From Sipunculus nudus (Eukaryota > Annelida > Sipuncula > Golfingiida > Sipunculidae), in NCBI GenBank assembly GCA_026874595.1, contig CM049317.1:34810901-34874900 (forward strand): a stretch of DNA of 64,000 bases. Direction: 5' to 3'. Below are positions 17,512 to 49,972 of this stretch, piece after piece. The translations under genes and the position numbers were made by a program. The notes beneath the pieces are model-generated. The model saw only the letters and a program-made list of their open reading frames with translations, did no database searches and was not told where the DNA came from. Each line of letters begins with the position of its first letter. Positions within the stretch are counted from its first letter, which is position 1.

Positions 17512-17575
17512 ATGCCAATCATTCGGTTCATTGGTGCGTTTCTCATATCCGCGCTAGCGGCTCATTTTAAATATG
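17512..17575 (+). CDS. Receptor gene 2: start and signal peptide exon
   Basis: ATG at 17512, encoding MPIIRFIGAFLISALAAHFK and Y, donor GTAAG in phase 1. Cleavage is likely after SALA. Confidence 0.8.
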
Positions 17576-20500
17576 GTAAGATAAACATTCATTCAATACT
17601 TGAATCAGTTACCGGAAAAGAATGAAAACCCTCTCATTTTGTATTATAAGGGAACTACGCAATATAATAATAGTGCACAGGACAATTTTTATTTTTTTTA
17701 AAGAGAATGGATGCCAATTTTTAAAAGATTTAAACATTTTTATTTTCCTAGTAGATCGAATGGTATATATTCTTTTACTTATTATAACTAATACTTATTC
17801 TTTCGTTCAGTATTAGCCATGGATGTTAAATAAAATCAAAATGACACACACATCTGTATTATCACACTAATATGTAGCTTCCGGCGACACTACCACCTTA
17901 TCATACGTTCAGTCCTGCAAGCCGTGGGAGGAGTCGGCACTTGGATGTCACTACGCGGGTTCTGGGTGGACGTTGCCAGTGATACAGGGATCAGACGACT
18001 ACCAGCGACTGAAGAAGGTCCTAGAAAACAACCATCTAAACGAAACATGGATACAGCTACGAAGACGCCACCTAGGAGGCTTTCGTTGGCTCAATTGCAG
18101 CAGTCCTCGTAAGCGTACAACCTTTTTTCAATCCATTCATAGTCTTTCAAACTCTAGCAGCGGCCTTGAACACTGTTGCTGTCTTTATTCATGTAAATCA
18201 GTCGTGACGAAATCCCAATCATGCAGGATGTACAGAAATACGATATAATGTGAAACCTCGTTATGTCGAAGTCGAAGGGATCCACAAAAAAATTCGACAC
18301 ATCCGAGGTTCGACACAAGCGGGTTTTATTTGGTAATGATTTAACTAGATTTTTCCGGAATATCGAGTCTGTAACTTCGACATAAACGGGGATATTCGAC
18401 TTAAGCGTGTTCGACACAACGAGGTTTCACTGTATTTATTTAAAATAACTAATAATGAAACTAAAAATCAGTATTCTAATGAATGCAAGCCTCCAACATG
18501 TGGGGGTCCCTATTGTTGGATGCTAACCAACCCTTGTTTGCATTCACGTATTCGGCTCATATCATAGGTTACAATTATGTGGGTAGTCGAGACCACACCA
18601 TCCATGTTCAGGTGCAAGTCCGAGTCCAGGCTTAACTAGTTAAAGTCGAAGTCTGAGTCCTTGAGGTTCGAGTCCAAGTCTACTTTCTTCGAGTCCGGGT
18701 CATCTGGAACCCGAATCCAAGTCAGAGTTCGAGAAAAAAATCTTTATAAAAGAAATTTATCATGACACTTTGAGATAAATTTGAGAAGTATATCTATGTT
18801 AGTTTACACATGCCTTTTACGTTAAGGTGTAAATGCATTTAGCTCCCGATGCAGACTTTAAGTTGGTATATACAGTCTGTTTTTGTAATATTATCTAAGT
18901 AATTCGCTCATGTATATAAATGTCTTTATGGTATGTGACAAAGGTTTCCTTCTGCTGGATTCAAGATGGACTTGGTCTGACCCTCGAGTCCAAGTCCGAG
19001 TCCCTAAAAAAAGAAGACTCGGGTCCGGACTCAAGACCTTCATTCGGGCATCAGTATATTTACATTCGTAAATATTTCTTGATGTCATTCCTGATCTTGT
19101 GGCGGATCCACACCAAATTCAGCCCATTCGCAAAATGCCGTTCATGCTTACGCGAGTTATATTGTGAACAAACACACAAACACACCATTACATGCACGAA
19201 AGGGGATGAACGCATACCCTGCTAAAGCAAAGGGGCCCAATAATGAACAACTGAAGGGTCTAACACATACTTTTGGCACGCTGTTTACTGAGATTGGCTT
19301 GAAATAGAAGTGCAAGAGACTTCCTCCAAATCTAACATTCGAAACAAAATTTTCACCACAAAACTTTACTTTACTTTGAATGAGCCTTTTTTGAAAGTTT
19401 TGTAATACTTTCAAAAGGGAAGAATGAAGGCTATAGTTATGCCTCCCTTTAGGGGTTGATGAGTTTATATCTTCTTTATTAATATGCTGTTTTGTTTCCT
19501 CTTTCTTTTCTTCCTTTTTTTCTGTCAGTTTTTGAGGAAGATTTGGTAGTTGGCTGATTTTCAGGAACCGACCTCTGGACAAAGTAATAGTCATACGTAA
19601 TAGATTTGCAACTAATATTATGATTTCACATTTATCGATTGGTTCTGTGTTTGGATCTTCAAGCCCGCTGATTTCCCAAAACTAACCCTTTATAAAAGCA
19701 AAAATCGGAGAAATTTACACCTGATATTTATTGTTAACCATGATCTAATTTTCAAACTACAGACAATTGTTCTGTTATTGCTCACTTGCGGGTAAAGGTG
19801 TAGTGATGGGGATGGTGATGGATTGGTCCGGGGTTGAGTTGTGTAAGGGGGGGGGGGGTTCTTCCTTGGCGATCGCCCGGCGATTTCAGACGTGTAGGAT
19901 TCCTGGGCTCTAATCTTGGGAGATTAGCTAATTGATCACTTTAACTAGTCAATGTTTATCCTGGCCGGAGTTCATTATAATAACACGACAGTCAATAATT
20001 GTTCACAAAATAAGGAAGAATTAGAATTTACACAAGAATCCACCGCCGGACGAATTATAGTGAATTACATAATCAGTCCTGTTGTTCCCTTACACCTTGG
20101 CCGCCATGTTTTTAACCAGGTCGACGGACATTATAATCCAGGTCGATGACGTATGTCACGGCCCGCGATCTTTAGTTTATACCAAACGTATCCACAGTAC
20201 CTACGCTTTATTCAAGTCCGATCGGCTATTATTCTTTCCCCGATCATGGCCACCACAGACGTGCCTGGATATCTTCCAGCCATTTTTACCAAGTCATCCG
20301 TAACTGAATGCATCTGTTATCGTTCAAAACGTCTTACCTGAATATGTGACGTCGTACCCTGGGGGGATGGGTCGCCACACATGTGAATGGATCTTGCTTT
20401 TAATTAAATAATATACTTTAACATTGCAGTCCGCACCTAACACACCTACAGAACCAAGGACACTCGTAGTGGTTACCCAGCTATCAAAGCATTGACCATG

Positions 20501-21103
20501 TACAATTTCCTGTGATTAATAACATCGCACATGAAATCGCAGGATATTGTATTAAATCTCAAGGTTTTGATCATGTTTTAAAACTGTGGACGGGTCATGG
20601 TAAAGCGTAGGATATCGTATAGACAAGGCTCAGATGTGGAGAGTTTGTGGAGAGTTGGCACACAATCACAGGTAGACGTCAATCGCGAAAGCCTAGGGAC
20701 CATGTGTGGTGTGAGGGGTGGTAGCTCCTGTTTCACGCTTCTGGTCTCTAAAAATGATAAAATAGCGAGCCGGTCTAAATGATTAGAACCCTCCAGTTTT
20801 TCTTTTCACAAAAAGGTGACACAATTTTGTTAACTTTATATCTTCAGCAACCACTTTCACTTCGCAGATGGTTTCGGAAAATTCGGGGTGCGCGTACCTT
20901 GATGTTGCATCGTCATCGCTGAAGACTGACGCGTGTTCAAAAGCGTTCGGGGTGATATGTGACATACCAGGTATTAACTTTAATCTATGTTTAAAATGCA
21001 CATATTCACATAAAGTAAAAGGATCATATTATCCTAAGTCAGCCTTTTCTCACAGACTTGATGAGGAATTCTGTAAGGAAAGGCTGACTTCATATCATAC
21101 ATA

Positions 21104-21153
<50 letters not shown>

Positions 21154-24100
21154 TTATGGAATCTTTATCTTATTTTCATATATATAATCAATTATTTTTA
21201 TTCTTAATGGCTTTAAGGCTCATTTCGATTTGTTTTAGTAAAATATTGATCTTGCAAGTTTTTAAAGACCAGTTACATTTTTTACATTTTTATAGTCCAA
21301 TGACAGAAAGTCTCATATTTTTATAGATAGATTTTTTATATTTGTTTTTGTTGTAATCGTAAAAGATTTTAAAATCCCTACCAAAGACTGCGGGTATTGT
21401 GAGCACTACCCCTGCGAACGTCACGGGGCTGGCTGCTACCTGAGGTCCTGCACATCGTTTACGTGGGAAGCCGGCAGGGCGTACTGTAAATCCCTGGGAC
21501 TCGTTCTTTCCGTCTTGTCTGACAAAGACCAAATCATCTCCGACCTGACCGGAAGCAACTGTAAGCGATATTGGGTAGGACTCAGGAAAGAAGAGTGGAC
21601 TTACCCAGGGGCAGGTAACACTTATTTTTACTGACAATATTATTGTTAAATAAATTGTTCTAGTTTTGCTAACGTTTTTAACCATCATAGCTCTTTTTAC
21701 GTATATATTCACCTTAATGATACCGTAATATCATAGCCTGTTAGTTCTAGTGCCATATAAATATAACACTATAATAAGAAACATGATCCATTCAGGTTAA
21801 GTATTTCCTCTGAAAGACCACGTCAAATATATTACACGTATTCCATTTTATACAGAATGTAAATTTGATGTGTATAAGAACATACACAAATACTCATTCA
21901 AAATGTTTACATGTATTTACTCGTTTCTCATCCTTTCCCGTTTTTTTTCGCTCTATCTACCAGGCTTTCTTTCTCTCTCAGCATTTCATCTGTCTTTTCT
22001 TTTCAACTTCTGTTGTTCTTATATCCTTAGTCTTTTCTCTTTTACTTTTTTTCTGATTTTTTTTATTATATTTTACATTTTTTTTCTGCCAATTTTAATT
22101 TTGGATCTATTAATCCAAATCTATTTGGATCTTTCCCAGTGTCCATTGGAGGGTTAGAGTACCAGGAGAAGAGTGATACAATTCTGGATTCATATAATTT
22201 AAATTTGCTTGTTGTTTCTTTACTGTCTTCAGATGCCCAGAACATGACGTCTGTATACTGGGGACAGCAGGAGCCTGGTCAGAAGGGGGACTGCGTTGTC
22301 ATGCACAGATTCAACTCAGGTTACAAATGGCGGGCGGCTGATTGTACAGAGTCGTATCAGTCTGTGTGTGTACCTTCAGGTATATATGTCATAACCATTG
22401 CATCTTTATCATAATTAACGGCGGTCGCATATGGTTGTTATCACAGAAATCCTCCGTGACCAAGCCTCGGATTTGCACGTGTTTAGCCATAAACCGTCGT
22501 AGTATATCCTTATTTCTCCTTATATTCAGAGATATTTCGAACAAAATTTTTCGGGTCCTCTGTCGAAGCATACTTGATATTGTGAATCAAAGGCAGAAAG
22601 CACTTTCCTATTCTAATCAAGGCCGGTCTGAAGCCCTCCAAACACGTGTTCTGAAACAGGGTATGTGGAAAGTAAGGTTAATATGTATAAACCAAACTTG
22701 TGTTTTACCGATTGCTCACTATTTTACGATTTATTTTGAGGCCTGTTATACCTATTGCTTTTGTAGTTGTTAACCTCTCATGGACGTGCTCTTGTTATAT
22801 ATTAATATTAAAATAATATAAAAAATATATTAGCCAGTCTACATTAAATTTAGTCACCATATCGTATTTGGGATTAAACTCAACTGGTGTTAAAGTAAAA
22901 AATGATAAACGGGTCGGTAAAGTTAGTACATCTTACATAGAAACGGTCATATAATGGTCGCATACAAGAAAGAATGGTAAGATATTCAGTCATTGTTTAC
23001 AAATTACAATAGAACGGGCTTTTGTTCATTTCGAACCAACTTGTTAAGGGAATGGGCGATAAAAGGGATGTAAGAGAGGTAATAGGCATCTATGAAATAC
23101 AAACTACGAGACTTCACTATATATTAATAAGACTTCCCATTACTTATGCTAACAAACGATGTGTTTGCCTAAAAAGTTGACATAACGAACACACGCTTGT
23201 GTAAAACCATAACGTTATATTGCTTAGTTACTACCCGATGTTATAGCTTACATAATTATGCCACATATAAATAAATTTAAGGGCAAATGGAAACACACAT
23301 AACCACATAAAAGGATGTTCATTAATGATCGTGCAGGATACATACAAAGCACTTAATAGCGTTTTGTTATTTAAACTTGGTAAATATATATACGAAACAG
23401 GTTGCACGGCTGGAGTTCCGATCGATGTGTCAATAAATTGTTTGTTATATGGTTTTGTCAGACCTATTGACATTTAACGATACTTCTTAATTATATTCAT
23501 TTACCTAATAAACATAGAGACCTAAGTTAAATAAAGCGCGTGTGGTCGTTTATGAGATGAAATGTGTGATCCTTAATCAAAAGTTAATAGATGACGCCAC
23601 ACGTACGATACAGGCGTATTCGTTCAATACGTTTTCTGCTGTTCACAATATTGCTTAATTTGAACAAATCACTCCCCCTGTTTACCTTGAACAACTTATT
23701 TATATGAATACATAAATGTACGGGTAGTAAAACCTGTAAATATAGATCAAGACTGATTATAACTGATTAAATTATCATTTAATAAACAATAGTCCTTTTT
23801 ATCAGACAACTCCCGGAACATATTACCATGGTTTCTTATGCGACGTGCCATTGACCGAAATGAAGAAAACCGACAACGGAACTATGAGCAGGAACGAAGT
23901 AAAGGTAAGCAAGGTAATGAAAACGTCAGTGTTACACTATTGGCAAACAAAGAATGCTAAACATTTTTTTGTAAGGAATGCCGTAATGAATTTAGCATGT
24001 TTGGTCAAATAATTCTTTTAACCCAAGTCTCCTTTAGAGGAACAGATAGCACAGACCACTTGCCCACGCACTAGATATAGGAGATGGATTGGTTCATCAT

Positions 24101-25035
24101 TCTATATTTTCACAGATAACCTTCCCTTACGCATGTTTTCTCTCCTATTCCCACGAAACAATGTTTCTTATCGTTATTGATATATCGATATTTTATTCTT
24201 GTTAGGAAATCCTGTTTACACCTCTTCAGTTGTGACATCATCAAATGACGTCACAACCAAGCGCGAAAAGGATGATCCATCGTACAGAAAAGGTGAGGAC
24301 AGTAAATTGATTTTGCTGGTCTCTTCTACATGGTGTCTTTCACTAAAATGCTGTATTCACTAAATTGGAGTATTTCCGGGAAACAACAACACCCTATAGC
24401 ATATATAGATCAAAACTTTTTCCATTATTTGAAGTTTGTGAGTGTGAGGGGAAAGTATGCCACACCAGCACTGCCCTCGTCTTATCGTTGCTATTGGCAA
24501 CCTGCTTGATCATGGTGTCCTACAACCTGGGCCGTTATAATGCTAAGAGGTGAGGAAAATAAAAATATATTTTTATAACATTGACGTACCTTCCTCTAAT
24601 TTTTGCAATTAATGGTCTAACTATTTGTTTTGTAGACTAAAAATCAGATATGATATATATTTATATAATTAATAATATCAAATGGTTAATAATATAATTA
24701 ATAGATTATGTTATATAATTATTGAATTATTATGGACATAGTAGAAACATCAGTGAGCCGATATATAATGCAGGTTTCCGATAGATTTAGTTTAAATGTA
24801 AATATATATCTAATACACTATTTCTCCTTCAATTAAGATTTCTTAGTTTTTATTTGTTCATTTTGTTTTTTTTGTCTTGATGATTGTATTATTTATAACA
24901 TAATAATGGACACACTGCATGTATATTCAAAGGGAACCGTGCTGTGGTCGGGAAAAAGAAGTTAGTATTGCGGTCTATGTAGAAGAAACGGATGGTGATT
25001 TGCTGGCCAGCATAAAGCAAAATAAATTAAAATGA
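17512..25035 (+). CDS. Two-CTLD single-pass membrane receptor, short tail
   Basis: Nine exons join in frame to about 405 residues: 17512-17575, 17878-18108, 20848-20970, 21366-21614, 22233-22379, 23806-23904, 24206-24292, 24435-24549 and 24933-25035. Residues 1-17 or so are a signal peptide (FIGAFLISALAA). Residues 22-139 form a divergent CTLD1, 140-271 a CTLD2 with YWVGL, and 272-343 a charged linker. The membrane helix lies at about 345-363. The 42-residue tail has a CC pair that could be palmitoylated and one tyrosine (SIAVYVEE), without a canonical ITIM. Every junction is phase 1 except the last (phase 2), which matches receptor gene 1 exon by exon. The two genes are therefore duplicated, inverted paralogues. 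Ligand and partners are unknown. A glycan- or pathogen-recognition role follows only from the family. Confidence 0.85.
17878..18108 (+). CDS. Receptor gene 2: CTLD1 first half
   Basis: 231 bases, phase 1 to 1, donor GTAAGC. It encodes PWEESALGCHYAGSGWTLPV and then HLNETWIQLRRRHLGGFRWL. It shares the NETW and RRR positions with receptor gene 1. The acceptor TATGTAG has a weak pyrimidine tract. Confidence 0.85.
18246..18433. mobile_element. MITE with pogo/Tigger-type terminal inverted repeats
   Basis: Ends read TGTGAAACCTCGTTATGTCG and CGACACAACGAGGTTTCACT, inverted copies of each other, flanked by TA. About 187 bases, no coding capacity. The GTGAAACCTCGTTAT-type terminus is typical of pogo-like Tc1/mariner MITEs. 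Confidence 0.75.
18590..19045 (+). repeat. Short relative of the 27-bp GAGTCCAAGT minisatellite element
   Basis: Repeats of GAGTCCAAGT-type words at 18600-18735 and 18975-19040 flank a non-repeat core. The outer parts match the ends of the expanded array at 55860-56835, including TTCGAGTCC and the TTTGGAAC/ATCTGGAAC block. Few units remain here. Confidence 0.65.
20848..20970 (+). CDS. Receptor gene 2: CTLD1 second half
   Basis: 123 bases, phase 1 to 1, acceptor ATCTTCAG and donor GTATTA. It encodes SENSGCAYLDVASSSLKTDA and then CSKAFGVICDIP. The C-x-YLD and ICD positions match the paralogue at 15514-15636. Confidence 0.8.
21107..21152. repeat. (TA)n microsatellite
   Basis: Pure TA run inside the intron between the two CTLDs of receptor gene 2. 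Confidence 0.95.
21366..21614 (+). CDS. Receptor gene 2: CTLD2 first half
   Basis: 249 bases, phase 1 to 1, donor GTAACA. It encodes CGYCEHYPCERHGAGCYLRS, WEAGRAYCKSLGLVLSVLSD and RYWVGLRKEEWTYPGA. An alternative in-frame acceptor at 21387 would drop seven residues. The acceptor used (TCGTAAAAG) follows the better T-rich tract. Confidence 0.9.
22233..22379 (+). CDS. Receptor gene 2: CTLD2 second half
   Basis: 147 bases, phase 1 to 1, acceptor GTCTTCAG and donor GTATAT. It encodes VYWGQQEPGQKGDCVVMHRF and YKWRAADCTESYQSVCVPS. EPG stands where EPN or QPD sits in sugar-binding CTLDs, and RAAD replaces WND. Confidence 0.9.
23806..23904 (+). CDS. Receptor gene 2: charged linker exon
   Basis: 99 bases, phase 1 to 1, acceptor TTTATCAG and donor GTAAGC. 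It encodes PWFLMRRAIDRNEENRQRNY and then EQERSK. It has a helical, highly charged composition. Confidence 0.7.
24206..24292 (+). CDS. Receptor gene 2: second linker exon
   Basis: 87 bases, phase 1 to 1, acceptor TTGTTAG and donor GTGAGG. It encodes a Ser/Thr-rich segment (PVYTSSVVTSSNDVTTKREK), a likely O-glycosylated stalk. Confidence 0.7.
24435..24549 (+). CDS. Receptor gene 2: transmembrane exon
   Basis: 115 bases, phase 1 to 2, donor GTGAGG. It encodes CECEGKVCHTS, the helix TALVLSLLLATCLIMVSYNL, and GRYNAKR as stop-transfer charge. Confidence 0.8.
24933..25035 (+). CDS. Receptor gene 2: tail exon with stop
   Basis: Phase 2 entry at TTCAAAG. It encodes EPCCGREKEVSIAVYVEETD and ends SIKQNKLK, TGA. 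It is homologous in position to 7397-7490. Confidence 0.75.
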
Positions 25036-27049: not shown

Positions 27050-27977
27050 TCAGGGCTTCAGTTTTTGACGTTTGCCTGTCATGTCCTCGTACACGTCTTC
27101 AGAAGACCCCGGTGACGCAATAAAGACCGGAGGTGGAATAAACAGGTGATGGCGAGTCCTGGGTGGGCGGGACGGGGGGTTAGTTTTCATGAGTTCTTCA
27201 GCCTGCGAATTAGCTATCTGGGTATCAAACAATGCTGGCGAGGGTTTACCACGTTTCCCCCGCCAAGTTGCGAAAATGCTTTTATCGGGAATATCGTAGT
27301 TGTCCTCTGGTACAGCTCCGCCAGAACCGCCATCGTTGCTTAAGCGCGGAACAGAGCCAAAATGGCTACCGGATGTAATGCCTAGTTGCTGCTTGAACTG
27401 AAGAGGATGCGTATAGATTGGAATTGCAGTATTTGAACTTTTAGGTGGTGATAACGTAATCTGCGCTATATTGGCGTTTGGCGATTTGCAAATATTGAAC
27501 TCCTTTGTGACGTCACCTGATGAATCTGGCAGAAAATATACAGGTTCCGGTTCCTGTACTCCGTACGTAATTTCAGCCTCTTGCCCGATTGGTTGAAAAT
27601 AATCATCTGTTTGGTCATCGGGAATTTGCCCTGCTATTTCTGTAGGTACGTCATACTCGACTATCATATTTTGAGAGCTGTAACCACCTTTCTGTGTACC
27701 GAAGACCTCACGGTTTTCTGGCAGTTGTTGACCACGTGACCATACGGCAGTATACAGCGCTTTTCCTTGATCGTTGCCGGAAGTGTAATGTAACTTTGCT
27801 TTTTTGGCAAAATCTCTTTCAACTTCTGTATATCCCTTTGAGGAAACAATCAGTCTTGAATGTCGTCCTGTCGTATTGAATGTTTGGTTTCCCATTTCCA
27901 AGTGGCATGATGGTAAGACCTCGATAGACTTGGCTACGGGGGATGTCCAATTCGGTTCCAACCCAGGGAAGTATGCC
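27050..27977 (-). CDS. Long-tailed receptor: terminal tail exon
   Basis: 928 bases, phase 2 entry at TATAAAG, ending KRQKLKP and stop. This is the largest exon in the window. Tyrosine motifs in order: SKGYTEVE, LHYTSG, ALYTAV, VEYDVPTE, DDYFQP, ITYGVQ, PVYFLPD, PIYTHP, DNYDIPDK and DVYEDMTG. A proline-rich NPPSRPPRTR precedes the last one. Low hydrophobicity throughout indicates an intrinsically disordered signalling tail. Confidence 0.85.
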
Positions 27978-28987
27978 CTTTATATAAAATATCAATATAC
28001 TTTTAAAATGTTTAATGAAATAGTTAAAACGCTTACAATGCTACAAATGTTATATAATAACCCTTTGAGCTTACTATTACTTTATGAACCAAGATGAACT
28101 ATAAATGGCATTTTCACAGGAGTACCCGTGATATTAATCAACTTCAAAACCGAAAAGTTGCTTTATTGTTATCCTAAACTTTTATGCCAAAAAGCAAACT
28201 TGTTTCGTCAAAAGATTAAACAATATTTAATTAATTCAACTTAACTATATAATTGTCGTCTTACAATATATGCGAAACACGGCAATTGGCGTAAAGGTTT
28301 CATAGAAATTAGTTAAATTAGTGTGTGTACATTTTGACTGTGTGGAAATTCATAAACAAGAATGGAAAGTTCCAAACAATTGGAGGTGTTAGAAGCTGAT
28401 CTGGAATCAAATGCGGATATAGGAGTAATATTTGTCTAAGTGCGTGTCTGTCTGCGTGTTTTTATTTACAAACACCTCAACACGTCTTAGATGGGTATTC
28501 TGTGAAGAATTTTGAGGCAAGGCCATGTGGAATAATCCCTTTTTGGCGGAATCAAGCGCCCTTCATCCTGTGTTCTGTTTAAATAATTCCTCATTTCCAT
28601 CCGTAATGTCAGCTTAAATCCATGCTCTAATCCCTAAATATGAAACAATTATAAACTGACAACAAACCTGTGATTAAAGTCCTGCCTGTCAGCATCAGGA
28701 CCCCGGCCCTCAGCGTCCTGATAGTAGCCCTCCGGCATGGCGTATTCACTGGCTATCCTCGGGCCCTTTAATGTCCACCACTGCGGGACTTCTCCCATGT
28801 TATTGCCGGCCCAAAACACTTCCTCTGCGTTCTTTGGTCTTAACATTTGGAAATAAATAAGTGTGCAAGAATAAATGTTTAAAAACATGAGACCCGAACT
28901 CAAGTTTATCCGTGGGCATAATATGTAAGTAGCTGTAGACCGTATGGTTACAGAACTCACACACACACATAGAGACACACACACACA

Positions 28988-29028
<41 letters not shown>

Positions 29029-32000
29029 AATTGACTGAAACACCTTTTGGATATATTTGTAATTGACCTTATAAAATAGTAGTTGCGCCTTACGACCAGC
29101 ATACTAGCGTCAGAGTGCCTATACATCCTTCAACGATAACTGCCCTATAAGACACTATGATGATGCAAATAGTTTTGTTATTTTTGTACCCTATCACTTG
29201 GCATAAACGAGACTAGTCGTGAACCTATTTAGTATATTTCTAACAACACCCATCATGTGCTAGATAAGATCTGTTTTAAGTCAGCATACCGGTAACTCCC
29301 TCTGCATGGTTGTTGAATTTCTTAGTACAAGCATGGCTCGCACGGGTCACAGGAGGATAGTCAACTTGTACGCGATACAGGAAATAGCTAGTTACCATAG
29401 AGACGAATTTGCAAATTTTTGTGAGTTCAAATGTATTCTTTTGTTTTAATTCATCAGTCGTAGCCTAACGTAAAGAGTTTCGGTTGTTTACCACGATATC
29501 AATGAAACAGAAGTCGATGGTCTTGCAGTACATTCCACCGTATGGCATGTATCACGATTCAAGTCAAGCTTAAAGTCCAATATAAATGCCTACTGAGTCG
29601 TGTATTTACGGCTAATGTTATTGATGAAGCTATAGTTTTCACATAACAAAATGGCGGCGACGACCTTAATGTAATTTCCGGTTAATTTATATTACTTCTG
29701 AACAGAGATAGGAGAGATGTTCGAGCAAAATAGATAAGTGATTTGAAAAGTGTAATGCTTACCGTTTTCTTGAACATATGCATATACATATAACGACGAA
29801 GGTGGTGAACAGTGTCGATCCAAGAGACGCAACAATTATAATCCACATGACTTCCCTGTCTTTGACTAAAAACAAAGGTATCAAACAATACATATCAGTA
29901 ACCATAGGCTTACATGCTGTAACAATTGAAAATATACGTATGAAAAGAGCAAACAAATATGTGCGCTCATTTTAAAATACTATAGTTCCCAGTCATCTTG
30001 AAATCATTAACGTACGGTCCAAATACCAAATACCGAGTTAAAAGAATAGGAGCTGTAGGGAGAAGCAGTTATTACTTAGAGAAAATGCTCTAAATAATAA
30101 ACATTCAAACATATAATAAGAATCTTTGGATCAACACAGAGCTTGGTTCCTTCCAGTTGAAATAGGTAAAGGATTCCCATTGTTAGAAAACCAATTTTAC
30201 CAGAAGGCGTCCGATGCCAATCCGAGGCTTCATCTGTGATATTTCCTGTCTGTGATATTTCAAGATTCGTGGTCGAACCTGGAATCAAAGAGACAGAAAG
30301 ACACAAATCAGCTGAGTGGGTTAAGGGTATGTATGTAATAATTATATAAACGTTTCTTGATTTCATTTTCCAACATGTAATCATGACCTGGACCAGACGA
30401 TATTAAATGCATTTTAGGTTCTCACATAGTTAAATCACCTACCATTTCGTCCATCAGTATCGGTACTGCCAAGGCTGTCGGAAGGTAACGTACTTTGCTG
30501 GTCTTTTCTTTTCTCTACAATTAAAATTAATGATATATTATACTTAAAATGTCATTATAAACGGAAAATATTTGGAATATTATAAACACTTTAATAGAAA
30601 TAACATATTAATTAATATACACTTGATTGCAAATTGGGCATGTATTGAGTTTATGATGGTAGTATCAACGACATCACAGTGAGAAAAGTCGCCGTAGAAT
30701 ACAGTATTTTTTATTGCAAGTAAGTCGCAAACTTGGTTCTATTTACACAGTCGTGTTTCATTACATTTGCTACGCTCGTTATTATAAAATGTTCATACAG
30801 AAATTGATATTATAATGCATGTTTAGTGTGATGTATAAAAATGTACACCTATCGAATGCTATCGAAAAAAATATTATTTTATTTGAGTCAAATGTTCAGG
30901 TCTAAGGAGAGAAGTGAAATGTCAACATGTTGTTCACAAAACATGTTCACGTGTTATTATCTCATACGTTACAAGCAATCGATATACTTCTTATAACAGT
31001 CCTATAACTTAGATCACGACTTATGGTCATGTACCTGTTTTATTGACACAGATAGCTGGTGCCCTCTCGTGGCAAGGACGTGGTTTCCATACGGGTTCAG
31101 AAGACATATCGAGAACAAAACACGTCATGTCAGAGGAAACGTCTGACCTACTTTCAAACAGCACTTCGGAAGGGAACGTCTGTTCTGTGCCTGAATTAGA
31201 TAAATTATCTAATTTTAATTAATAATAACTTTTTTTTTTAATTTATGAAATTTATAAAAATAACTTCCCTCAAATGTGTAAAATTTTAGCGGTTATAGCA
31301 TTGTTTATAGGAACTTTTACATGAACATCAGAAAGAGGAATTTGGGCCAACTAAAGGTTCATGGTATGACAATTTAACAAGTCTGTTGATCAAACGTCAC
31401 TTTAAAACGCCTTAAAGTGGTAATAAAGAAAAAAATTAATAAACATTTGTAATATATTGTGTTATATTCAGTCGAAATCAAATATATATATATTGAAAGG
31501 AATCTATACATAGGACATACTCTAATGATACAAATAAGCTTAAGGTCATGTTATATTATAAACGGGGATCGTTGAGCTAATAGAGTGTACATTTCGATGA
31601 CAACCTGAGCTTTCTGTCCCAAATTTCCAACTTTCAGCATTTAGTCCAATCCAGAACTCCTGTGTAAATTTCATGGTCATTTTATTCATGGCGTCGTTGA
31701 TGCTACTGTTACCAGATGTATCCCACAAATCTCCGCCCATAGCCCTGCATGCCGCTCGCGCATGATACCACGTGGGTGCTCCATACCGTTTTATCAGGCA
31801 GCCTTTCCCTAAATTGTGACAGGACCATGTGGGACATATAGAACAACCTGTTAACATAAAAACAATGTCGATACTGTGATTTGCTCGCTCTTCATGGGGT
31901 TAAAATTCGCGATGGTTCCAATTTCCGATCTCACAATGCAGAGTTTAACCATTATAATGTGAATTTACTATGTCAAATATTTTGTGCACAATATCTTTGC

Positions 32001-35000
32001 ACAAAATTAAACTTTATATATTCGTTTATGGCAGACAATTTGACAGATCTGATATAATTTAAAATGTAAATCTGTGAACATACATGATCTATTTTGATTG
32101 CATATCTTAACAGTTTACTATACAGGTGCTAACGCGTTCATCATCCTTTGAGTGAAAGTTTTGTTTGTAGTGACATTGAAAATATCCAATGGATATCTCT
32201 CCCTGCAACTGAAGGTTATGAAATTATATCTTGTTATATTGAGACAACAAATATCGTTTGAGACCTTCAATCCAATTCTTTCGAAATATCCAACGGACAT
32301 TTGATTTTCGCATTTGTGAAATATGCGCATATTGTACTATAATGAACGAGCATCTTGGCAACCAAAGGATAAAGTATTCTATGTTTTCCTCTAACGTCGT
32401 CCAAAAATATGCATGCTTATGCAAAAAAAAGGGGAAACAATGAAATGTCGGTTTTATAATTTGAACTCAGACCTTGAAGTGACCTAACAATACAAATATA
32501 TAATAAACCTTTTGCTATGGATAAAATTTCATATAATTTCTATATATTTATCTTCTTTCCCAGGTATTTATGGATAAATTGTTAAGTGATCAACGTGCTA
32601 AAACAATTACTTGTCCGGCTCAATCTTAATACTTATCAATAATTTCCGATATACAAGAGTCATGTGTCTCCTTCTAATATTAAAGAGTTTAATTAAGATT
32701 TGATAATTAGTATATGTGGTTGTCATTATATTATAATTTGTTTAACTGATTTGGTGACAAAATTTCTATCCGTTTTTAAGGAAAATGTAAACAGCTTACG
32801 AGAAAGTTTACAGTGAAATTGGGAGAAACTGGCGTATTTTTCATGTTTTTTTATTGTCAGAATCACTCATCGTTATCGCATTTACTATATTATCCTCAAG
32901 TTTAATCATTTATCCTTGATGGCGTGTGTTTATGCTTTACATGTGTTGAAACACAGCGGAGATAACCGACCGTCGACCCTTGTGTAACAGCATAGGGGGA
33001 GTCAAGCGTGACGACACCTTGTACAGGCGCCATGGTAGACTGACCAAGAAAGGACTTTGATGCAAAAACACACGTCGCAGTTCTCCTCAGTACCCGAAGA
33101 TGGAAAGTACCACTTTATATTTTATATTTAAAACTCTGACGTAATGACAACACGAGCGGATGAAGGGTCACATTGTTTATTTATTCTTATCTTGACATTA
33201 TTTAATTTCATTCTACAAAAAGCTTGTACATAAGATCAAGAAAGTGGAGGGAAGACCTGTTCCGGAGCTTCGTGGTTTTGATATTCCTATTTATCATGTC
33301 GATCAGTAATTTCACGGTCACTTGGTGTTCATAATAATGACACCTGAAGAAAGAAGATATTCATTTTCGAAATTGTATTCATTTTGTATTTCAATATTTG
33401 CACAATGGAGTCGTTATTCAATTATGCATGTGAATGTTCACTATCAAAATTGTGTAAATTGAATGTTTGAAATTCTTAAGAACTTCTAAGCGTGTATCAT
33501 TTGCCTGATTTAATTTTTAAGGAATTATCATTGAATGTAAGACAATGCATTTGATTGTTTATATAAAAATTACAAGTATAGTTTTGAAAATTTGAGTTTT
33601 TTTTATATATGGTAAAATATATATTTCATAATTTTTAATGAGAGTAAAGTAACGTTACTAGATTGAGGGTTTTGTCCTGTTTGACATAAGGGAAGTGGAG
33701 TGGTGCGGGGTTTTTGAGCGGTATTTCTTTGGATTTTTCCCACACACCTTTTCTCTAAAACTCATTTCCTTTTGGTCTAAGAAAGCTGTGACCTAGCCAC
33801 TTTTAAAAAGAAGTTTAAGACATACTTATTTGTGAAATTTTTTGTTGATTTGTTATTTGCTGATTGCGAACATTCTCATTTTTATATTGTGATTTTAAAT
33901 AATTCTATTTGTTTCATGCCACATCAGAGTATAATGTTCGGGGTTTGTTTTTAATTTATTTAATCAAAGTAACATCTGTATTTTCCTTTTCGTAATTTTT
34001 CATATCCTATGCAATTGCTTGTTTGTAATAAATTTTAGAGCACATTATCGTGGATTTGACGCTTTATATAATAAAAATTATTGTTAAAATAATAATAATT
34101 ATTATTATATTATTATTATTATTATTAAAAGGACTATGGATAGGTCGTTTGGTGTTACCTCAACTTGACACTTTTTTATACCACTAGACATTCTTAGATA
34201 TTTTGCACATGACATCCACATGGCATACTTTGTTAAATTATCAAATATAATTTTGGGGTCAATGTGGTTATTTTTGCAGTATATGAAGTTAAAAATTGAC
34301 ACATGTGCTGGGTTTTTATATATTATAAATAAGGGGGAAACAAAATTACATATTTTAAAAAATTGACTGACAGATTTTTCATTTTATTCTACATAAATAT
34401 GCAGAATTAAATGTCAATCATATTTAAAGACAAAAATATGTATGTCAAAAGATTAAATATTAAAATATCAGACAAAAATATGAAAATTTTGGAGATTTTT
34501 AGTTTAGTCAACTCCCCAAAGGTGTTCCTTGCGATTCTGAGACAGAGAGCCAGTCCACTCTTAAATAGCTGTTGGCATAAAAAAATATCTATGTAATCGG
34601 CTTTTAAAATGCCCAGATCAAAAGAAATAAAATAGATCAGCACTCAAAAATATGTGTAAATACTAGTACTAATTATCTCTTCAGCATTACACAGTCAATG
34701 TCACTGACAATCACATGGTGATATTTATGCTCTGTTTTGTCATCTATTTGCAGCTGTCAAAATTCTCAGTTGACTAGAACTCAAGATCCGTTAGTATGTT
34801 CCTGAACTTGAGCCTTTTCTAATGATATGATGTTTGAAAATTTCTAAGTTACAATGTGTTACTGGTTATAAAATTATAAAAATAACCTGTTTCACTGAGA
34901 AATCCTACAATTGTGTGAGCCATATTTCAAAACCAAGAAAAATATTCCTACTTCCATCATTTTGGAGTAATATAGATAAATCAATACATATACGGATATT

Positions 35001-36622
35001 AAACCTGCTGTTTTCAAAGGATCCCTTCAAACCAATAGAGGGCTTATTGCAAATTTCAGATCACCTTTTACCCGAGCAGGTACAGGGCTTTAATTACATA
35101 ACAATCAAGGATACTCATTTTATATTTATTTTTGATAAATTCAAATTTTGTCTACATTCAAAATAAGTGTATACTACGTACCTCAGGTATTTTTATCACC
35201 TGCCGGTGAACACACACCCAAAAATTGCAGCGCCCCCTACTGTTAGCAAATATCTCCGAGTGGCCGGTGGGGAACGGACATTTTGTAAATTTTATGTGGC
35301 AGGGGCGATGTATTGGCAATCATTCGGTTTTCATATGAATTCAGTAAAACTACTGCGAGCCCTCTATATTACAATTAAAGAGAATCATAAAGAGAATGAC
35401 AGGTATCTTAGTCAAGAAACACATAAATCATTGCCGATTAGCAATTCATTAGCGTCAAGCAGATGCGCATTGGCTAATCAGCGAAACTGAAGTTGGTACA
35501 TGGGTTTCATGCATAATAAGTAACACATTAAAATATATTCGAATGTTAGTAAATACGTAATACTTATGAAACACGTGTCTTTAAATCACATGAAATCCAA
35601 TAATAGTCTTGAGTTGCTTAATAGGACTATTTTTCCTTAAGTAATCCATTGAAAGCGCTGCTGATCAGCGAACTAGTCACTGTCAGGTATGTTGCGTTTC
35701 TTGTATAATAATTAACAAAATAAAAATATATCTGTTTGTTTGTAAATACGTAATAGTGATAAAAAGATGTCTTTTAATCATGTTTATTCACACAATAATC
35801 GAATATTGCTATATTGGGGATAATTTGCTTGAAATTAATGCCTTAATTGAAAGGTCGCTGATCAGCTCGCTGATCAGCGAATTATACCCTCCCGCCTCAT
35901 GACAATTCCACTAGAAATCTTTAATTTGCATTATCATCATTGGGGGGGCCAGTAAAGTGTAAAGTTCACCCTTAACGTCCTCGATTTTTGCGTAAAGTTG
36001 CTAACAGACAATTGTAAAATGAACCAACGATCCAAAGGGAAATAAGATAACCTTCGCCTCCGTTTATAAGTACATATTTTACAATAATATCTATAATATA
36101 CCAAAAGAAGATACCTTAACCTCTCGTCATGGTCATAGACCAATAACACAAAGTTTCTGCAGCAAAAGGTAATATATTCTCTCACCTGAAATGTGACAAA
36201 GAAATCCAGTGACTGTATCCTCATAGCAATTAATATTCTTTAGTTCAGGAGGGTTATTCCATTTCACAGCTTTGCAGTTCTTTCCTAAGTCATCTGCTGC
36301 AAATAGTCAGATATACAAAGTGTGCAATTCTGTATGACGTTAATTTATATGGCTTATTGATTCCCCCATGCATAGTTGAATATACAAAACCTACCTGAAT
36401 TATCCTGATATATCTGTCGAGTTCGAACAGAATTAAACTTCTCAGTGGGTGAACTGGTGATATTGAGCCAGGTCTGGTTAATTCCTTCCGTGTCCATGTA
36501 TTTCTTAACACTCTTTTTCTCGTCAACCATGTTGCCAGCTAACAAATACCCACCAAATGATCTGCACAAGTTCCTTGCTTCATTCAACGTAACGTTTGTC
36601 TCGGGTAAGAAATATTCATCTG

Positions 36623-36669
<47 letters not shown>

Positions 36670-46983: not shown

Positions 46984-49972
46984 AACTAAATAAATTCTAT
47001 AGATTTACTAATCTATAAATCCGAGCTTTCGAGGCACGCAGGATTCTTCGTCAGGAGGTGAATGGCAACGGGTAGGGAGGTGTTTTATATAACAGAGTAA
47101 TGTAGGAAGTCCATAAGGCAAAAAAACATTTTACACTTGAACAAATAAAAAACAACAAGATTAACGCAGAAGGAAATTATTTCTTCAGTGGTGAGATTAA
47201 AGTGGCGGCTATTTTTTATTACAGTAGTGACCGTTATTACAATAGTGGTTCCTCGACCCGGCCACTATTGTAATAACGTGAGAGTGGACTTCAACGTTTG
47301 GAATGCTAAAATTCCCCAGCATTTTACACTTGAACCCAAATAAAAAACAATGGTGGCATTTCAAGATGAACTATGAGAGAAATTATTTCCTCAGTGGTAA
47401 AATTAAGGTGGCAGCTAATTTTTATTACAATAATGACCGTTATAACAATAGTGGTTGCTCGACCCGGTTACTATTGGAATAACGTTCACTATTGTAATAA
47501 ATTTCGTTTTTGCTTTAATTAATGATGTAAGAGTGGATTATAAAGTTTGGAATACTACAATTCTGCAGCATTTAAGACTTGAACACAAATTTAAAACAAT
47601 GGTGGCATTTCAAGATGAACGACGATAGAATTATTCCTTCAGTGGTGAAATAAAGGTGACCTCAATTTTTATTACAATAGTGACTGTTATTACAATAGTG
47701 GTTTCTCGACATGGTCACTAATGTAATAAAGGTCACTAGTGTAATAACATATAAAATACATTTTGATGCGTTTTTGGGGATACTGAGTATGAATTGTGTT
47801 GTTTTTTTTTCGGGAATATCATTTGTTTGGAAGAATCTCGACGAATCTGGGAAAAATTTCCGCCTGCAACATCAACCATTATTGAAAAAAAAAATTATTA
47901 CAATAGTGGTTGGCAAAAACTGGCCCTTACCAACCACTATTGTAATAATTATTACAATAGTCAACGTTATTACAATAATGGTTGCAACAAAGCTGTTAGT
48001 AAACACTGTACACGGGGCCATGTTGACAAACAGAAAAAAAAACATGACCGGAGGTACCTGTTTACGCACGTAAATCAAGCAATTTCTTCCTCTGCCACCA
48101 ACCTCTGTTTCGTATAGTTTGCCAATTGATGGCCTTGCTTGGATTACGATTGATGGACATTTTAACGGGTCCCCCCAATTGTTATAACCACATGGATATA
48201 TGAAAAACGGACATCTTGTGCATAGAAGGAATGGCCAATTCCTGTTTCTTTGGCTAATTTATATAAAAGGTTCAGTCTATTACCTTTATTTGATACACGT
48301 CAGAAATATTCATGATAGCTCATCCGTCGTTTGTCCGTCGGTCCGGTATCCGCACACAATCGCAAATAAATCATCCTTTATTTCTCGACTGATCTTGATT
48401 GTAATTGTTAATCTAATAATGCTAGCTGTTGGCTTTTCAACTGACAAAAATAAGTCACTACTCAGTAGAGCTCCTGTAAGCCCCCCCCCCCCCCCCCCCC
48501 AGAACTAAAGTATCCCCTTGGCTTAAGGCTTTAAACGTAACAATAAACATTTTTTAACATAAAGTGTATGGTTGGTTGAAAAGGGTAAACATGATTTGGC
48601 TTCCATTTTGCATAACGAAACGCTTTGTATAGCGTCCTCTAAACCTTTAATGTAGTTATCTAAACACGTACAGTAATTCCATTCGTATTGTTGAACATTA
48701 AAACCAGCCTGGAAAAGACTTTTATGGTTATCTGAGGTCCTACGAATCGTAGGATTTTCCTACGACAGCCCAGCAATTGACGCTCGTTCTACCTCTGGTC
48801 CTACGAATGTTCTACCGTTGTTGGCTTTGGCTTTGGCCGTGGCTTCAGCTTAAACCGAAGTCATATACATCGCACAACACATATACGTTAGGTCTACGAC
48901 AGACAATGGGGAAATTTTTCTTTTGTATTACGACCATCTTAAGGACCTCAAATGAATGTCGTAGGAAGAGCTACCATTAGACTTAGACAGATACAATATA
49001 TATTTTATACATGAACGCTTCGTGAACGTGAACGTCGGGGGAACAGGTCTTCAATTTCAAAACGATCAGTCATGACAATACTTCCTTCTGGCCTGCCTTT
49101 CTGAATAGCGAGACACCGTGGTAAGTGAGATCTAAGCTAAGAGGTTCTTTTGTCATACATAAAAAAACCTCCCTACCACTGGCTGGGTTTTTGGGAGTCG
49201 CAGCTGATCGTAAATATTCTGCGGTGGCAAATTATCGTGCGACTGTCACACAATTGTAAATTACCCAGTCGCTACCAACCATATTCTTCTACGACCAGGT
49301 GTTCTCCCGACAGTCACTAGACTATCCTACGACCACAAAATTTTCGATATAAAAAAGCCTCGCTTTTCGAAAAAAAATTCCAATCAATTACAAGAATATG
49401 GGCGAAATCCTGGCAAGGGCCGAAACATGCTATTGTCAGATTCGAACCTGCACCTCCCAGTGAATTGGCTCGGTGGTAAGACACGCGAACCACTCGTACT
49501 ATTAAAAATGTGGTAATGATCTTTAACAGGGATATCTCAGCATGGAAAGATTTGTATGCGAGTCAAGCTTGCTCATCTTTGCACCAAAATGTTCCGTATG
49601 CATTGCGTTATATAATATAACTTTATTCATCTTACACTGACTGTAAAAATAGTTAATTACTAATCAAGGCACTCTCCATGGCTCCGATGATGGCGTTTGG
49701 TAGCCTGTAGGGTTGGAGGAAAGCAGAGTAGGCGGAGAAAACCACGGGCCTTGGGCGGCTCGGTATCTAACCCGGGTCGCAAGGGGAGAGAGACGAGCGT
49801 TTTATCCCTTGACTGTCCATATGTATGTGCTGATGAAAATAAACATTTATATGTGTTGATTGTCTTGTGTTTTATACCAGTAATACTTACCAGTATTTTC
49901 ACGAGCAAGGGCAGGCTGGCACATCAAGACAAGGAAAGTTATTGGTATAAAACTCTTAATCGTAAACTCCAT
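27050..49972 (-). CDS. Two-CTLD membrane receptor with long tyrosine-rich tail
   Basis: Ten exons join in frame to about 722 residues: 49972-49891, 36619-36395, 36296-36186, 31847-31605, 31190-31035, 30514-30443, 30278-30201, 29865-29763, 28838-28668 and 27977-27050. Signal peptide 1-23 (ITFLVLMCQPALA), CTLD1 about 28-139, CTLD2 about 140-272, a Ser/Thr/Asn stalk to about 328, membrane helix 329-353, then a cytoplasmic tail of about 370 residues. The tail holds YDVP, YDIP (Crk/Nck-type SH2 sites), YEDM (p85-type YxxM), several other tyrosines and PSRPPR (SH3 type). All joins agree in phase: phase 1 up to the helix, phase 2 after it. The head exon is 13.3 kb from the next exon; it is linked by phase and layout only and could belong to another gene. 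It is presumably a signalling receptor. Ligand and activating or inhibitory sense are unknown. Confidence 0.75.
28668..28838 (-). CDS. Long-tailed receptor: membrane-proximal tail exon
   Basis: 171 bases, phase 2 to 2. It encodes PKNAEEVFWAGNNMGEVPQW, then SEYAMPEGYYQDAEG. The donor is GTTTGT. Joining the preceding CG and the following G gives arginine at both junctions. Confidence 0.8.
28989..29023. repeat. (TA)n microsatellite with adjacent (CA)n
   Basis: Run of TA preceded by CACACA, in the intron between the helix exon and the tail exons. Confidence 0.95.
29085..29620 (+). mobile_element. Dispersed repeat X, copy 2
   Basis: Shares ordered blocks with 6005-6558, from CTTACGACCAGCATACTAGC to TGCCTACTGAGTCG. 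It inserted in the intron just downstream of the helix exon, antisense to the gene. Confidence 0.7.
29763..29865 (-). CDS. Long-tailed receptor: transmembrane exon
   Basis: 103 bases, phase 1 to 2, acceptor TTTTTAG and donor GTAAGC. It encodes VMWIIIVASLGSTLFTTFVV and then ICICICSRKR. The cysteines at the inner leaflet may be palmitoylated. Confidence 0.85.
30201..30278 (-). CDS. Long-tailed receptor: stalk exon
   Basis: 78 bases, phase 1 to 1, acceptor GATTCCAG and donor GTAAAA. It encodes STTNLEISQTGNITDEASDW, with an N-I-T sequon. Confidence 0.7.
30443..30514 (-). CDS. Long-tailed receptor: stalk exon
   Basis: 72 bases, phase 1 to 1, acceptor TTGTAG and donor GTAGGT. It encodes KRKDQQSTLPSDSLGSTDTD, a polar spacer. 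Confidence 0.65.
31035..31190 (-). CDS. Long-tailed receptor: CTLD2 second half
   Basis: 156 bases, phase 1 to 1, acceptor AATTCAG. It encodes DVSSDMTCFVLDMSSEPVWK and then CHERAPAICVNKT. The cysteines are kept, but there is no EPN/QPD or WND, so Ca-dependent sugar binding is doubtful. Confidence 0.8.
31605..31847 (-). CDS. Long-tailed receptor: CTLD2 first half
   Basis: 243 bases, phase 1 to 1, acceptor GTTAACAG. It encodes CSICPTWSCHNLGKGCLIKR, WYHARAACRAMGGDLW and EFWIGLNAESWKFGTESS. The donor CAG|GTTGTC is weak but is the only one that keeps phase near the position seen in the paralogues. Confidence 0.8.
32118..32330 (-). other. Possible CTLD1-like exon relic
   Basis: A minus-strand frame reads CRERYPLDIFNVTTNKTFTQ, loosely like the CTLD1 first-half exon. 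It ends in a stop without a donor and is not needed by the gene model. It may be a decayed duplicate exon or chance. Confidence 0.2.
33690..34130 (+). mobile_element. Possible LINE 3' end with (ATT)n tail
   Basis: A frame reading ESCDLATFKKKFKTYLFV resembles the C-terminal ending common in LINE ORF2 proteins. It is followed by AT-rich sequence and a TTA/ATT repeat at about 34083-34127. No reverse transcriptase core is present. Confidence 0.3.
34131..36185. other. Intronic, nothing recognised
   Basis: The upstream part of the intron between CTLD1 and CTLD2 of the long-tailed receptor. AT-rich; the open stretches at 34407-34643 and 34834-35490 have no family motif. Confidence 0.4.
36186..36296 (-). 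CDS. Long-tailed receptor: CTLD1 second half
   Basis: 111 bases, phase 1 to 1, acceptor ATTTGCAG and donor GTGAGA. It encodes LGKNCKAVKWNNPPELKNIN and then CYEDTVTGFLCHIS. Confidence 0.8.
36395..36619 (-). CDS. Long-tailed receptor: CTLD1 first half
   Basis: 225 bases, phase 1 to 1, donor GTAGGT. It encodes EYFLPETNVTLNEARNLCRS, GGYLLAGNMVDEKKSVKKYM and INQTWLNITSS. NQTW occupies the same position as NETW in the two short-tailed receptors. The acceptor TTTACAG follows a (TA)n tract instead of a pyrimidine tract. Confidence 0.85.
36627..36665. repeat. (TA)n tract, left of solo LTR C
   Basis: TA run that directly abuts the TGTTAC end of the LTR and lies next to the splice acceptor of the CTLD1 exon. 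Confidence 0.95.
36666..37512 (-). mobile_element. Complete solo LTR (copy C) inserted in a TA microsatellite
   Basis: 847 bases. On the minus strand it starts TGTTACAGCTGCCCTTTTAT and ends GGTTCCGTAACA, i.e. TG...CA with short inverted ends TGTTAC/GTAACA. ATAT lies on both sides, consistent with a 4-5 bp target duplication. It contains a TATA-like TTATAAATAAG and an AATAAA-rich 3' part. No internal genes, so it is a solo LTR formed by recombination. It is antisense to nothing: it has the same orientation as the host gene. Confidence 0.85.
37513..37600. repeat. (TA)n tract, right of solo LTR C
   Basis: Continuation of the TA microsatellite split by the LTR; produces false poly-YI open frames. 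Confidence 0.95.
37605..37895 (+). mobile_element. tRNA-derived SINE with (TA)n tail
   Basis: Head GTTAGTGAAGCTTGCTTTAA, A-box-like TGGCGAAGCGGTAGAACGTC, B-box GGGTTCGAACCC, then a body with GGGGTCAGAAGTGGGATCCG, ending in (TA)n at about 37865-37892. It is the longest of the SINE copies. Confidence 0.7.
38094..38112. repeat. Poly(C) tract
   Basis: Homopolymer C run at the boundary of the LINE fragment. Confidence 0.9.
38113..38480 (-). mobile_element. LINE 3' fragment encoding a C2H2 finger
   Basis: Minus-strand frame reads ATTDLKCQTCRRYFHARIGL then TSHLRTHKVRSTTKP and stop. It is a C-x2-C-x12-H-x3-H finger of the kind found at the C-terminus of many invertebrate LINE ORF2 proteins. Only the end of the element is present. 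Confidence 0.6.
39035..39421 (+). mobile_element. LTR copy D, 5'-truncated
   Basis: Matches the 3' half of copies A-C: AGTTTACTTTCTGGGTTGTT, GGTATCCAGGTACTGTGCAC, the ATTCATTCCCC and CATTTCACGC blocks, end GGTTCCATAACA. Sequence upstream of about 39035 no longer aligns clearly. Confidence 0.65.
39422..40617. other. Intronic AT-rich stretch
   Basis: No gene or clear repeat recognised; within the 13.3 kb first intron of the long-tailed receptor. Confidence 0.4.
40618..41650 (-). repeat. Left arm of a large imperfect palindrome (CACTATTGTAATAA satellite)
   Basis: Built from roughly 245-bp units that contain inverted words such as CCACTATTGTAATAACGGTC and TTACAATAGTGACCG. The same sequence occurs in reverse complement at 47160-48000, including the CGACGAATCTGGGAAAAATT region and the GGCAAAAACTGGCCCTTACC region. 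Confidence 0.75.
41680..42890 (+). repeat. About 278-bp tandem satellite with GGTGGCGCCACC palindromes
   Basis: About four tandem units. AGGTGGCGCCACCTA recurs near 41842, 42114, 42394 and 42663, alternating with a second GGCGCCACC site near 41690, 41966 and 42525. Shared spacers include TTTTTGCACAGCGTCCGTCT and TTTTGCATGTGTATAGAT. The unit may be a dimer of about 140 bp. The same family occurs at 58360-59290 and, reversed, at 45535-46175 and 60660-61050. Confidence 0.75.
42891..43200 (-). repeat. Further unit of the CACTATTGTAATAA satellite
   Basis: Contains CCAACCACTATTGTAATAAC and GTCACTATTGTAATATG, in the same orientation as 40618-41650. Confidence 0.65.
43530..44035 (+). repeat. About 165-bp tandem repeat with CAAGGTCA motifs
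   Basis: Three units share TTGATAAGATGCATCAATGC-type, GCATGTTTGGTGGCTATA-type and TGTCAAGGTCAT-type blocks. A GGACGGACGGACG-rich end follows at 44028-44070. Related units in the opposite orientation occur at 51800-52265. Confidence 0.65.
43610..43637. repeat. 28-bp perfect palindrome of two TCAAGGTCA sites
   Basis: GTGACCTTGAAATA followed immediately by its reverse complement. Each arm contains TCAAGGTCA, the extended half-site recognised by ERR/SF-1-type nuclear receptors. Confidence 0.8.
44452..44520. repeat. (TA)n tract, left of foldback element
   Basis: Long TA run ending at TATTATGGTAC. Confidence 0.95.
44522..44655. mobile_element. Foldback (hairpin) MITE inside (TA)n
   Basis: Arms of about 58 bases are near-perfect inverted copies: TGGTACAAATAGCA...GGCAATTGTACCAGTACAGA on the left and the reverse complement on the right, with a loop of only about 15 bases. 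TA microsatellite flanks both ends, as for elements that target TA. Confidence 0.75.
44684..44723. repeat. (TA)n tract, right of foldback element
   Basis: TA run following ATAAATATAAATAAA. Confidence 0.95.
44724..45534. other. Intronic, nothing recognised
   Basis: Contains a short GTGTTTATA-rich part near 45020-45060 and 45350-45440, but no gene or defined element. Confidence 0.4.
45535..46175 (-). repeat. GGCGCCACC satellite, reversed cluster
   Basis: Contains GATGGCGCCACCAGT near 45690 and 45970, GGTGGCGCCATCTTTCTT near 45823 and spacers such as TGAACCACTCCTGAGATATG. Orientation is opposite to 41680-42890, so the two clusters are mirrored within the large palindrome. Confidence 0.65.
46921..46979. 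repeat. (TA)n microsatellite
   Basis: Uninterrupted TA run, followed by sequence reading ATCCGAGCTTTCGAGGCACG. Confidence 0.95.
47160..48000 (+). repeat. Right arm of the large imperfect palindrome
   Basis: Reverse complement of 40618-41650: GGAAATTATTTCTTCAGTGG, TTACAATAGTGACCGTTATT, the GACGAATCTGGGAAAAATTT region and the GGCAAAAACTGGCCCTTACC region appear in mirrored order. Confidence 0.75.
48480..48500. repeat. Poly(C) tract
   Basis: Homopolymer of about 20 C. Confidence 0.9.
49430..49505 (-). mobile_element. Possible Leu/Ser-type tRNA-like SINE head
   Basis: On the minus strand: CGAGTGGTTCGCGTGTC about 50 bases before GCAGGTTCGAATCTGA. The spacing resembles a class II tRNA, but no acceptor stem can be closed. 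Confidence 0.35.
49665..49815 (-). mobile_element. SINE tail-like repeat beside receptor exon 1
   Basis: Minus strand: GACCCGGGTTAGATACC (degenerate B-box) then AGGCCCGTGGTTTTCTCCGC, CTCTGCTTTCCTCCAACCC. This CGTGGTTTTC...CTTTCCTCC tail is common to many tRNA-derived SINEs. Confidence 0.45.
49891..49972 (-). CDS. Long-tailed receptor: start and signal peptide exon
   Basis: ATG at 49972-49970, encoding MEFTIKSFIPITFLVLMCQP and then ALARENT, donor GTAAGT in phase 1. It supplies the phase required by the CTLD1 exon at 36619; the 13.3 kb intron between them is full of repeats. No other exon in between fits as partner. Confidence 0.6.

Follow-up and report, generated by a model that had tools for sequence, protein, structure and literature searches.

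Tyrosine-based C-type lectin receptors signal via ITAM, hemITAM or ITIM motifs and Syk or phosphatases. Tyrosine signalling by C-type lectins is already known in invertebrates, as described in oyster reviews (PMC13027682, PMC12842671), in which the membrane C-type lectins CgCLec-TM1 and CgCLec-HTM are reported to carry a hemITAM that binds Syk. In the excerpted text of an account of bivalve C-type lectins (PMC10140915), the counts of domains and membrane helices are given and the tails go unmentioned. Tails with several YxxP sites are described for DCBLD2 and DCBLD1, which have seven and eight of them, respectively, and bind the SH2 domains of CRK/CRKL once phosphorylated by FYN or ABL (PMC8015000). 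According to PMC5043372, the preference of the CRK SH2 domain for YxxP is pre-metazoan: membrane proteins whose cytoplasmic parts are rich in YxxP occur in choanoflagellates, a choanoflagellate Crk binds pYDVP peptides derived from one such protein of a second choanoflagellate, and DOCK180 and C3G are partners of the Crk SH3 domain.

Here we describe a gene (gene C) of Sipunculus nudus, in a window of 64,000 nucleotides (the whole stretch of DNA that was analysed), in which a C-type-lectin-like ectodomain is joined in the gene model to a long tail with an array of YxxP sites. Our literature search gave no paper combining the terms 'YxxP' and 'C-type lectin', although spellings such as Y-x-x-P would escape it. 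Judged by title and opening lines of the abstract, none of the literature matches listed combines a CTLD ectodomain with a YxxP tail, and such receptors may sit unnoticed in public animal genomes.

Exon structure and ectodomain of gene C

Nine exons on the minus strand, running from 36619 to 27050, join in frame to give a type I receptor with, in order, two C-type-lectin-like domains (CTLD1 and CTLD2), a stalk, a membrane helix and a 369-residue tail. Each domain is encoded in two halves (CTLD1 at 36395..36619 and 36186..36296, CTLD2 at 31605..31847 and 31035..31190), followed by two stalk exons (30443..30514 and 30201..30278, both phase 1 to 1) and the membrane helix exon (29763..29865, core IIIVASLGSTLFTTFVVIC), which runs from phase 1 to 2 as it does in the neighbouring genes A and B. 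The tail is encoded by two exons, 28668..28838, which contains YAMP, and 27050..27977, which includes the stop codon. AG precedes all nine exons, GT follows the first eight and the ninth closes with the stop, and the intron phases are consistent throughout, being 1 as far as the helix exon and 2 beyond it. A possible poly(A) signal lies at 26837, beyond the tail. This exon structure is seen in the DNA itself, and from it we infer that the exons would be spliced in the modelled way.

The product matches Pfam Lectin_C (PF00059) with E = 3.8e-15 (57 bits, compared to the curated cut-off of 22.6) and has two stretches at E ≤ 1; CTLD1 alone scores 25.2 bits. Together with the exons joining in frame, this match supports the original prediction that 27050..36619 is one gene with a CTLD1-CTLD2-helix architecture. 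The predicted start at 36619 is that of the first lectin exon and not of the gene, which is tentatively placed in a signal-peptide exon at 49972-49891. Scanning both strands of the window for signal peptides gave 6 hits, among them the first exons of genes A and B, and upstream of gene C there were two candidates. The one at 49891..49972 (minus strand, phase 0 to 1), 13 kb upstream, encodes the signal peptide MEFTIKSFIPITFLVLMCQPALARENT and was preferred because the other, at 47931-48021, is one long hydrophobic stretch and was disfavoured; phase and hydrophobicity are what mark 49891..49972 as a tentative first exon.

It is very improbable that gene C is a model artefact or a decaying gene. 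Its introns are large, (AT)n adjoins one acceptor, both the acceptor and the donor of exon 28668..28838 look weak by eye and the first exon is tentative, but all ten exons are open and in phase and the longest of them is strongly periodic.

In gene C, as in genes A and B, Lectin_C was the only Pfam domain above its cut-off; TMEM154 (15.7 bits, E = 0.014) fell short of the 30.3 bits required. Among PDB sequences, gene C is best matched by mannose receptor 2, bitiscetin and mannose receptor 1. The calcium/sugar motif of C-type lectins consists of EPN or QPD together with WND. A check for this motif found no EPN, QPD or WND in gene C, with EPD in gene A, EPG in gene B and no W.D. Because the motif is absent, we refer to a CTLD protein rather than to a demonstrated sugar-binding lectin; gene C would thus have non-canonical ligand sites, and sugar binding is not implied by its sequence.

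Several repeats were observed in the window. A dispersed family occurs in both orientations at 5625-6819, 8775-9445, 36661-37367 and 39051-39426, and two of its copies lie a short way ahead of gene C's first lectin exon. At 41081-42713, 47127-47984 and 58387-59278 there are satellite-like arrays (units of 248-281 bases) of two families, one with inverted copies at 47 kb and the other with direct copies at 58 kb. Neither Rfam at the gathering threshold nor ARAGORN (bacterial code) gave a match in the window.

Two short-tailed relatives in the window

The two short-tailed sisters that had been predicted beside gene C were found, and their exon phases and domain architecture match those of gene C. 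Gene A (7397..16350, minus strand, 8 exons) has 38 residues beyond the helix core and gene B (17512..25035, plus strand, 9 exons) has 40. All three genes follow the order signal peptide, CTLD1 (two exons), CTLD2 (two exons), stalk, membrane helix and tail, with intron phase 1 before the helix exon and 2 after it. Genes A and B are arranged head to head at their starts, and B and C tail to tail at their ends. The helix exon of gene A, which follows the last lectin exon at a distance of 6.4 kb, was missed by a strict scan and found by a relaxed one, and its tail exon was identified by reading the sequence. PF00059 scores are 72.7 bits for gene B and 50.7 bits for full gene A (27.2 bits for its CTLD1 alone), all above 22.6, and the best PDB sequence matches of gene B are mannose receptor 1 and members of C-type lectin domain family 4.

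A tblastn search of the window with all protein pieces of A, B and C revealed no further member, the best match outside the 27 model exons having E = 0.24. A good-looking signal-peptide first exon (4478-4586, minus strand, phase 0 to 1, donor gtatgt) was observed 2.8 kb downstream of gene A and possibly opens a fourth gene that continues beyond the left window edge; tblastn of A, B and C to the left of it gave no convincing match (best E = 1.4, low complexity).

The original prediction had likened the three genes to a paired-receptor set, in which similar ectodomains are wired to different outputs. Paired receptors have highly similar ectodomains, with an ITIM in the long tail and, in the short-tailed partner, a charged residue in the helix. 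It is true that A, B and C are clustered, share exon phases and domain order and differ in their tails. However, identity between the lectin domains of gene C and their A and B counterparts is only 18.9-29.2%. CTLD1 is 18.9% identical between C and A, 29.2% between C and B and 35.1% between A and B, and the corresponding values for CTLD2 are 25.2%, 26.0% and 43.0%. For CTLD1 the A-C and B-C alignment scores stayed within the range of 1,000 shuffles (z 2.3 and 3.6), and for CTLD2 they lay above it (z 7.8 and 11.4). Moreover, the 19-residue helix cores of all three genes contain no charged residue, so that no ITAM adaptor would be expected to be recruited via the helix, and the tail of gene C has no ITIM, ITAM or YxxL. 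The short tails also speak against the set, since the A and B tails are possibly akin, with 6 of 33 residues identical and an alignment score reached by 0.4% of 5,000 shuffles. The comparison with a paired set therefore did not hold, and we regard a shared ligand with opposite outputs as highly improbable. Instead, A, B and C look like an old receptor family, one branch of which bears a long docking tail.

The short A and B tails contain no recognised signalling motif except for one YWLI, noted by eye next to the membrane in gene A and absent from gene B. A faint V.V....DG..A.I pattern, which is no recognised motif, is visible by eye in both (7397-7490 and 24933-25035). The resemblance between the A and B stalks is not significant (14% of 5,000 shuffles) and no shared stalk helix is claimed. 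A likeness at the C-terminal ends of B and C was set aside as chance.

Coding potential and motifs of the long tail

The open frame at 27053-27979 spans 309 codons. With stops occurring at the background rate of 0.061, the probability for one frame to stay open for 308 codons is 4e-9, and about 3e-5 such frames are expected in the window. The 3-base periodicity of the 928-base tail exon, taken as the unevenness of base composition by codon position, is 26.2 and lies above all 702 of 702 background windows (924 bases, overlapping, step 60; maximum 21.9); for comparison, genes A and B reach 11 and the other exons of gene C 23. Open far beyond chance and with a periodicity above every background window, the exon is very probably coding. 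The smaller tail exon, 28668..28838, is open in the required frame, and its periodicity is equalled by 6% of 903 windows.

A codon score was trained on the lectin-receptor exons, a small set that was scored on itself and whose amino-acid make-up differs from that of the tail. It gave 0.005 for the big tail exon, compared to 0.13-0.24 for the three receptor genes used in training, -0.04 to 0.07 for the other frames of the same exon and 0.35 for the small tail exon. This score fails to distinguish the big exon from other open frames, as 8 of 72 outscore it, six of these eight within one minisatellite. A 27-base minisatellite of about 22 copies was observed at 55863-56472, open in several frames on both strands, and the repeat itself accounts for the long open frames there. 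Repeats shared within the window (blastn, E ≤ 1e-15, >120 bases) overlap none of the 27 exons in the three gene models, and the tail as part of such a repeat was therefore rejected.

The two tail exons could also, or only, encode a separate cytosolic Cas-like docking protein translated from an internal start. An in-frame ATG lies in the open frame a few bases ahead of the acceptor of exon 28668..28838, whose weak-looking splice sites would fit such a start. Against this, the helix exon ends in a good phase 2 donor (gtaagc) that requires an exon downstream, and a tblastn search with the A and B tails gave no match at E ≤ 10 in 27978-29762 apart from the model exons. We consider a separate protein improbable, and hold with high confidence that the tail exons and the receptor exons are one gene.

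A tail of about 370 residues with YDVP, YDIP, YEDM and a PxxPxR site had been predicted, and all four motifs were recovered in the 369 residues, the last as PSRPPR. Four further YxxP sites, YAMP, YFQP, YFLP and YTHP, are absent from that earlier list. Thus, 6 of the 15 tail tyrosines have proline at Y+3, namely YAMP (28733..28744), YDVP (27644..27655), YFQP (27590..27601), YFLP (27527..27538), YTHP (27404..27415) and YDIP (27287..27298). PSRPPR (27158..27175), an SH3-type ligand that fits PxxPxR and also PxRPxR, and YEDM (27080..27091), a p85-type YxxM site, follow on the same minus strand, all these positions having been derived by hand from the exon coordinates.

In 100,000 shuffles of the tail, YxxP occurred 1.4 times on average and six or more times in 0.13%, and the hypergeometric value for the enrichment is 0.0013. 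At the seven other offsets from the tail tyrosines, proline was found 0 to 2 times each, compared to six at Y+3. YxxP also occurs outside the tail, at 2 of the 7 tyrosines of gene C before it, 1 of 17 in gene A and 0 of 20 in gene B, so that single sites mean little and the case rests on the array. Crk SH2 favours D at +1, as in YDVP, and four of the six sites lack it. The grouping Y[DE]x[PM], picked after the sites were seen, covers three tail sites and is reached in 0.1% of shuffles.

CD19 uses YEDM for p85; PxRPxR suits amphiphysin-type and PxxxPR CIN85-type SH3 domains. At least one YxxM was present in 22% of shuffled tails and at least one PxxPxR in 29%, so that the single copies in gene C are unremarkable; PxRPxR is rarer (0.7% of shuffles). 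Of the SH2- and SH3-type docking originally predicted, the SH2-type sites are thus present and stand out as a six-YxxP array, and the p85 and SH3 claims are without statistical backing. The array makes Crk docking more credible than could be told from the shorter list of sites.

A motif scan of the tail found no YxxL/I, ITIM, ITAM, NPxY or YxN, and gene C as an ITIM/ITAM or hemITAM receptor was rejected on the absence of these motifs. Pfam gave no match for the big tail exon, and a PDB sequence search returned one nanobody at E = 0.69, which was read as chance. Comparison of this exon with viral contigs (7 pattern matches) and prokaryotic genome contigs (19) confirmed none; these collections are not intended for animal sequence and have no bearing on animal relatives. 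A composition-based disorder index also places the lectin domains on the disordered side and was therefore dropped, and the tail is presumed to be flexible.

The same tail may be read in another way, with gene C as an adhesion or endocytic lectin receptor whose tail flexibly links it to the cytoskeleton and whose YxxP sites are unused for Crk. The big tail exon without a Pfam domain and the YxxP sites outside the tail would agree with this, and a single YEDM is compatible with a YxxPhi uptake signal, for which the lone YEDM here could serve. On the other hand, proline is enriched at only one of the eight offsets, Y+3, and a count of six YxxP is rare in shuffles, and we regard this reading as unlikely.

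A candidate Crk-docking receptor and its known counterparts

Our preferred reading, and probably the right one, is that gene C encodes a type I two-CTLD receptor whose presumably flexible tail would act as a multi-site docking platform for the Crk SH2 domain, much as DCBLD1/2 or the substrate region of p130Cas do. The exon structure, the domains and the YxxP enrichment are present in the DNA; every step from phosphorylation onward, as well as the cell type, we infer. Binding of a ligand or of a neighbouring surface would cluster the receptor, and a Src- or Abl-type kinase could then phosphorylate the YxxP tyrosines of the tail. The phosphorylated array would bind Crk multivalently, and the Crk SH3 domain would in turn recruit the exchange factors DOCK and C3G. 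Through Rac or Rap1, local changes in actin and adhesion might follow, leading to engulfment, spreading or adhesion, with YEDM possibly adding PI3-kinase and PSRPPR an SH3 protein. Since a choanoflagellate Crk binds pYDVP peptides, an invertebrate Crk would be expected to read the YDVP of gene C.

More tentatively, a lectin-like receptor with its own Cas-like tail may lead from recognition to Crk-DOCK/C3G-Rac/Rap signalling with no need for ITAM, for Syk or for Cas as a scaffold of its own. This direct route from lectin to Crk would lie beside relatives of the same family whose short tails have no recognised docking array. A CTLD receptor with built-in Crk sites, if true, would represent a different wiring, in which recognition is linked directly to adhesion and engulfment. 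It would also suggest that receptor families swap tails through exon exchange at a fixed intron phase.

Among known systems, the CTLDs of the mannose receptor family (MRC1 and MRC2) are among the nearest solved-structure sequences to gene C, which differs from this family in having just two CTLDs and a long tail, with nothing else recognised by Pfam in the extracellular part. CgCLec-TM1 and CgCLec-HTM of oyster are similar to our proposal in being membrane C-type lectins that signal via a tail tyrosine (PMC13027682, PMC12842671). Unlike these hemITAM lectins, gene C has two CTLDs and, in place of YxxL, six YxxP sites. The substrate domain of p130Cas/BCAR1 resembles the tail in its repeated YxxP, YDVP included, and the choanoflagellate YxxP proteins are, like the product of gene C, membrane proteins (PMC5043372); gene C differs from both in its CTLD ectodomain. 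Whereas the Cas family (BCAR1) has an N-terminal SH3 domain and a C-terminal FAT-like domain, gene C has no SH3, FAT-like or SH2 domain by Pfam. DCBLD1 and DCBLD2 are likewise type I single-pass proteins, with a long tail and several YxxP sites (7-8, compared to six in gene C) for Crk-type SH2 domains (PMC8015000). Their ectodomain is CUB-LCCL-discoidin, in contrast to the two CTLDs of gene C, in which Pfam gives no CUB, LCCL or discoidin.
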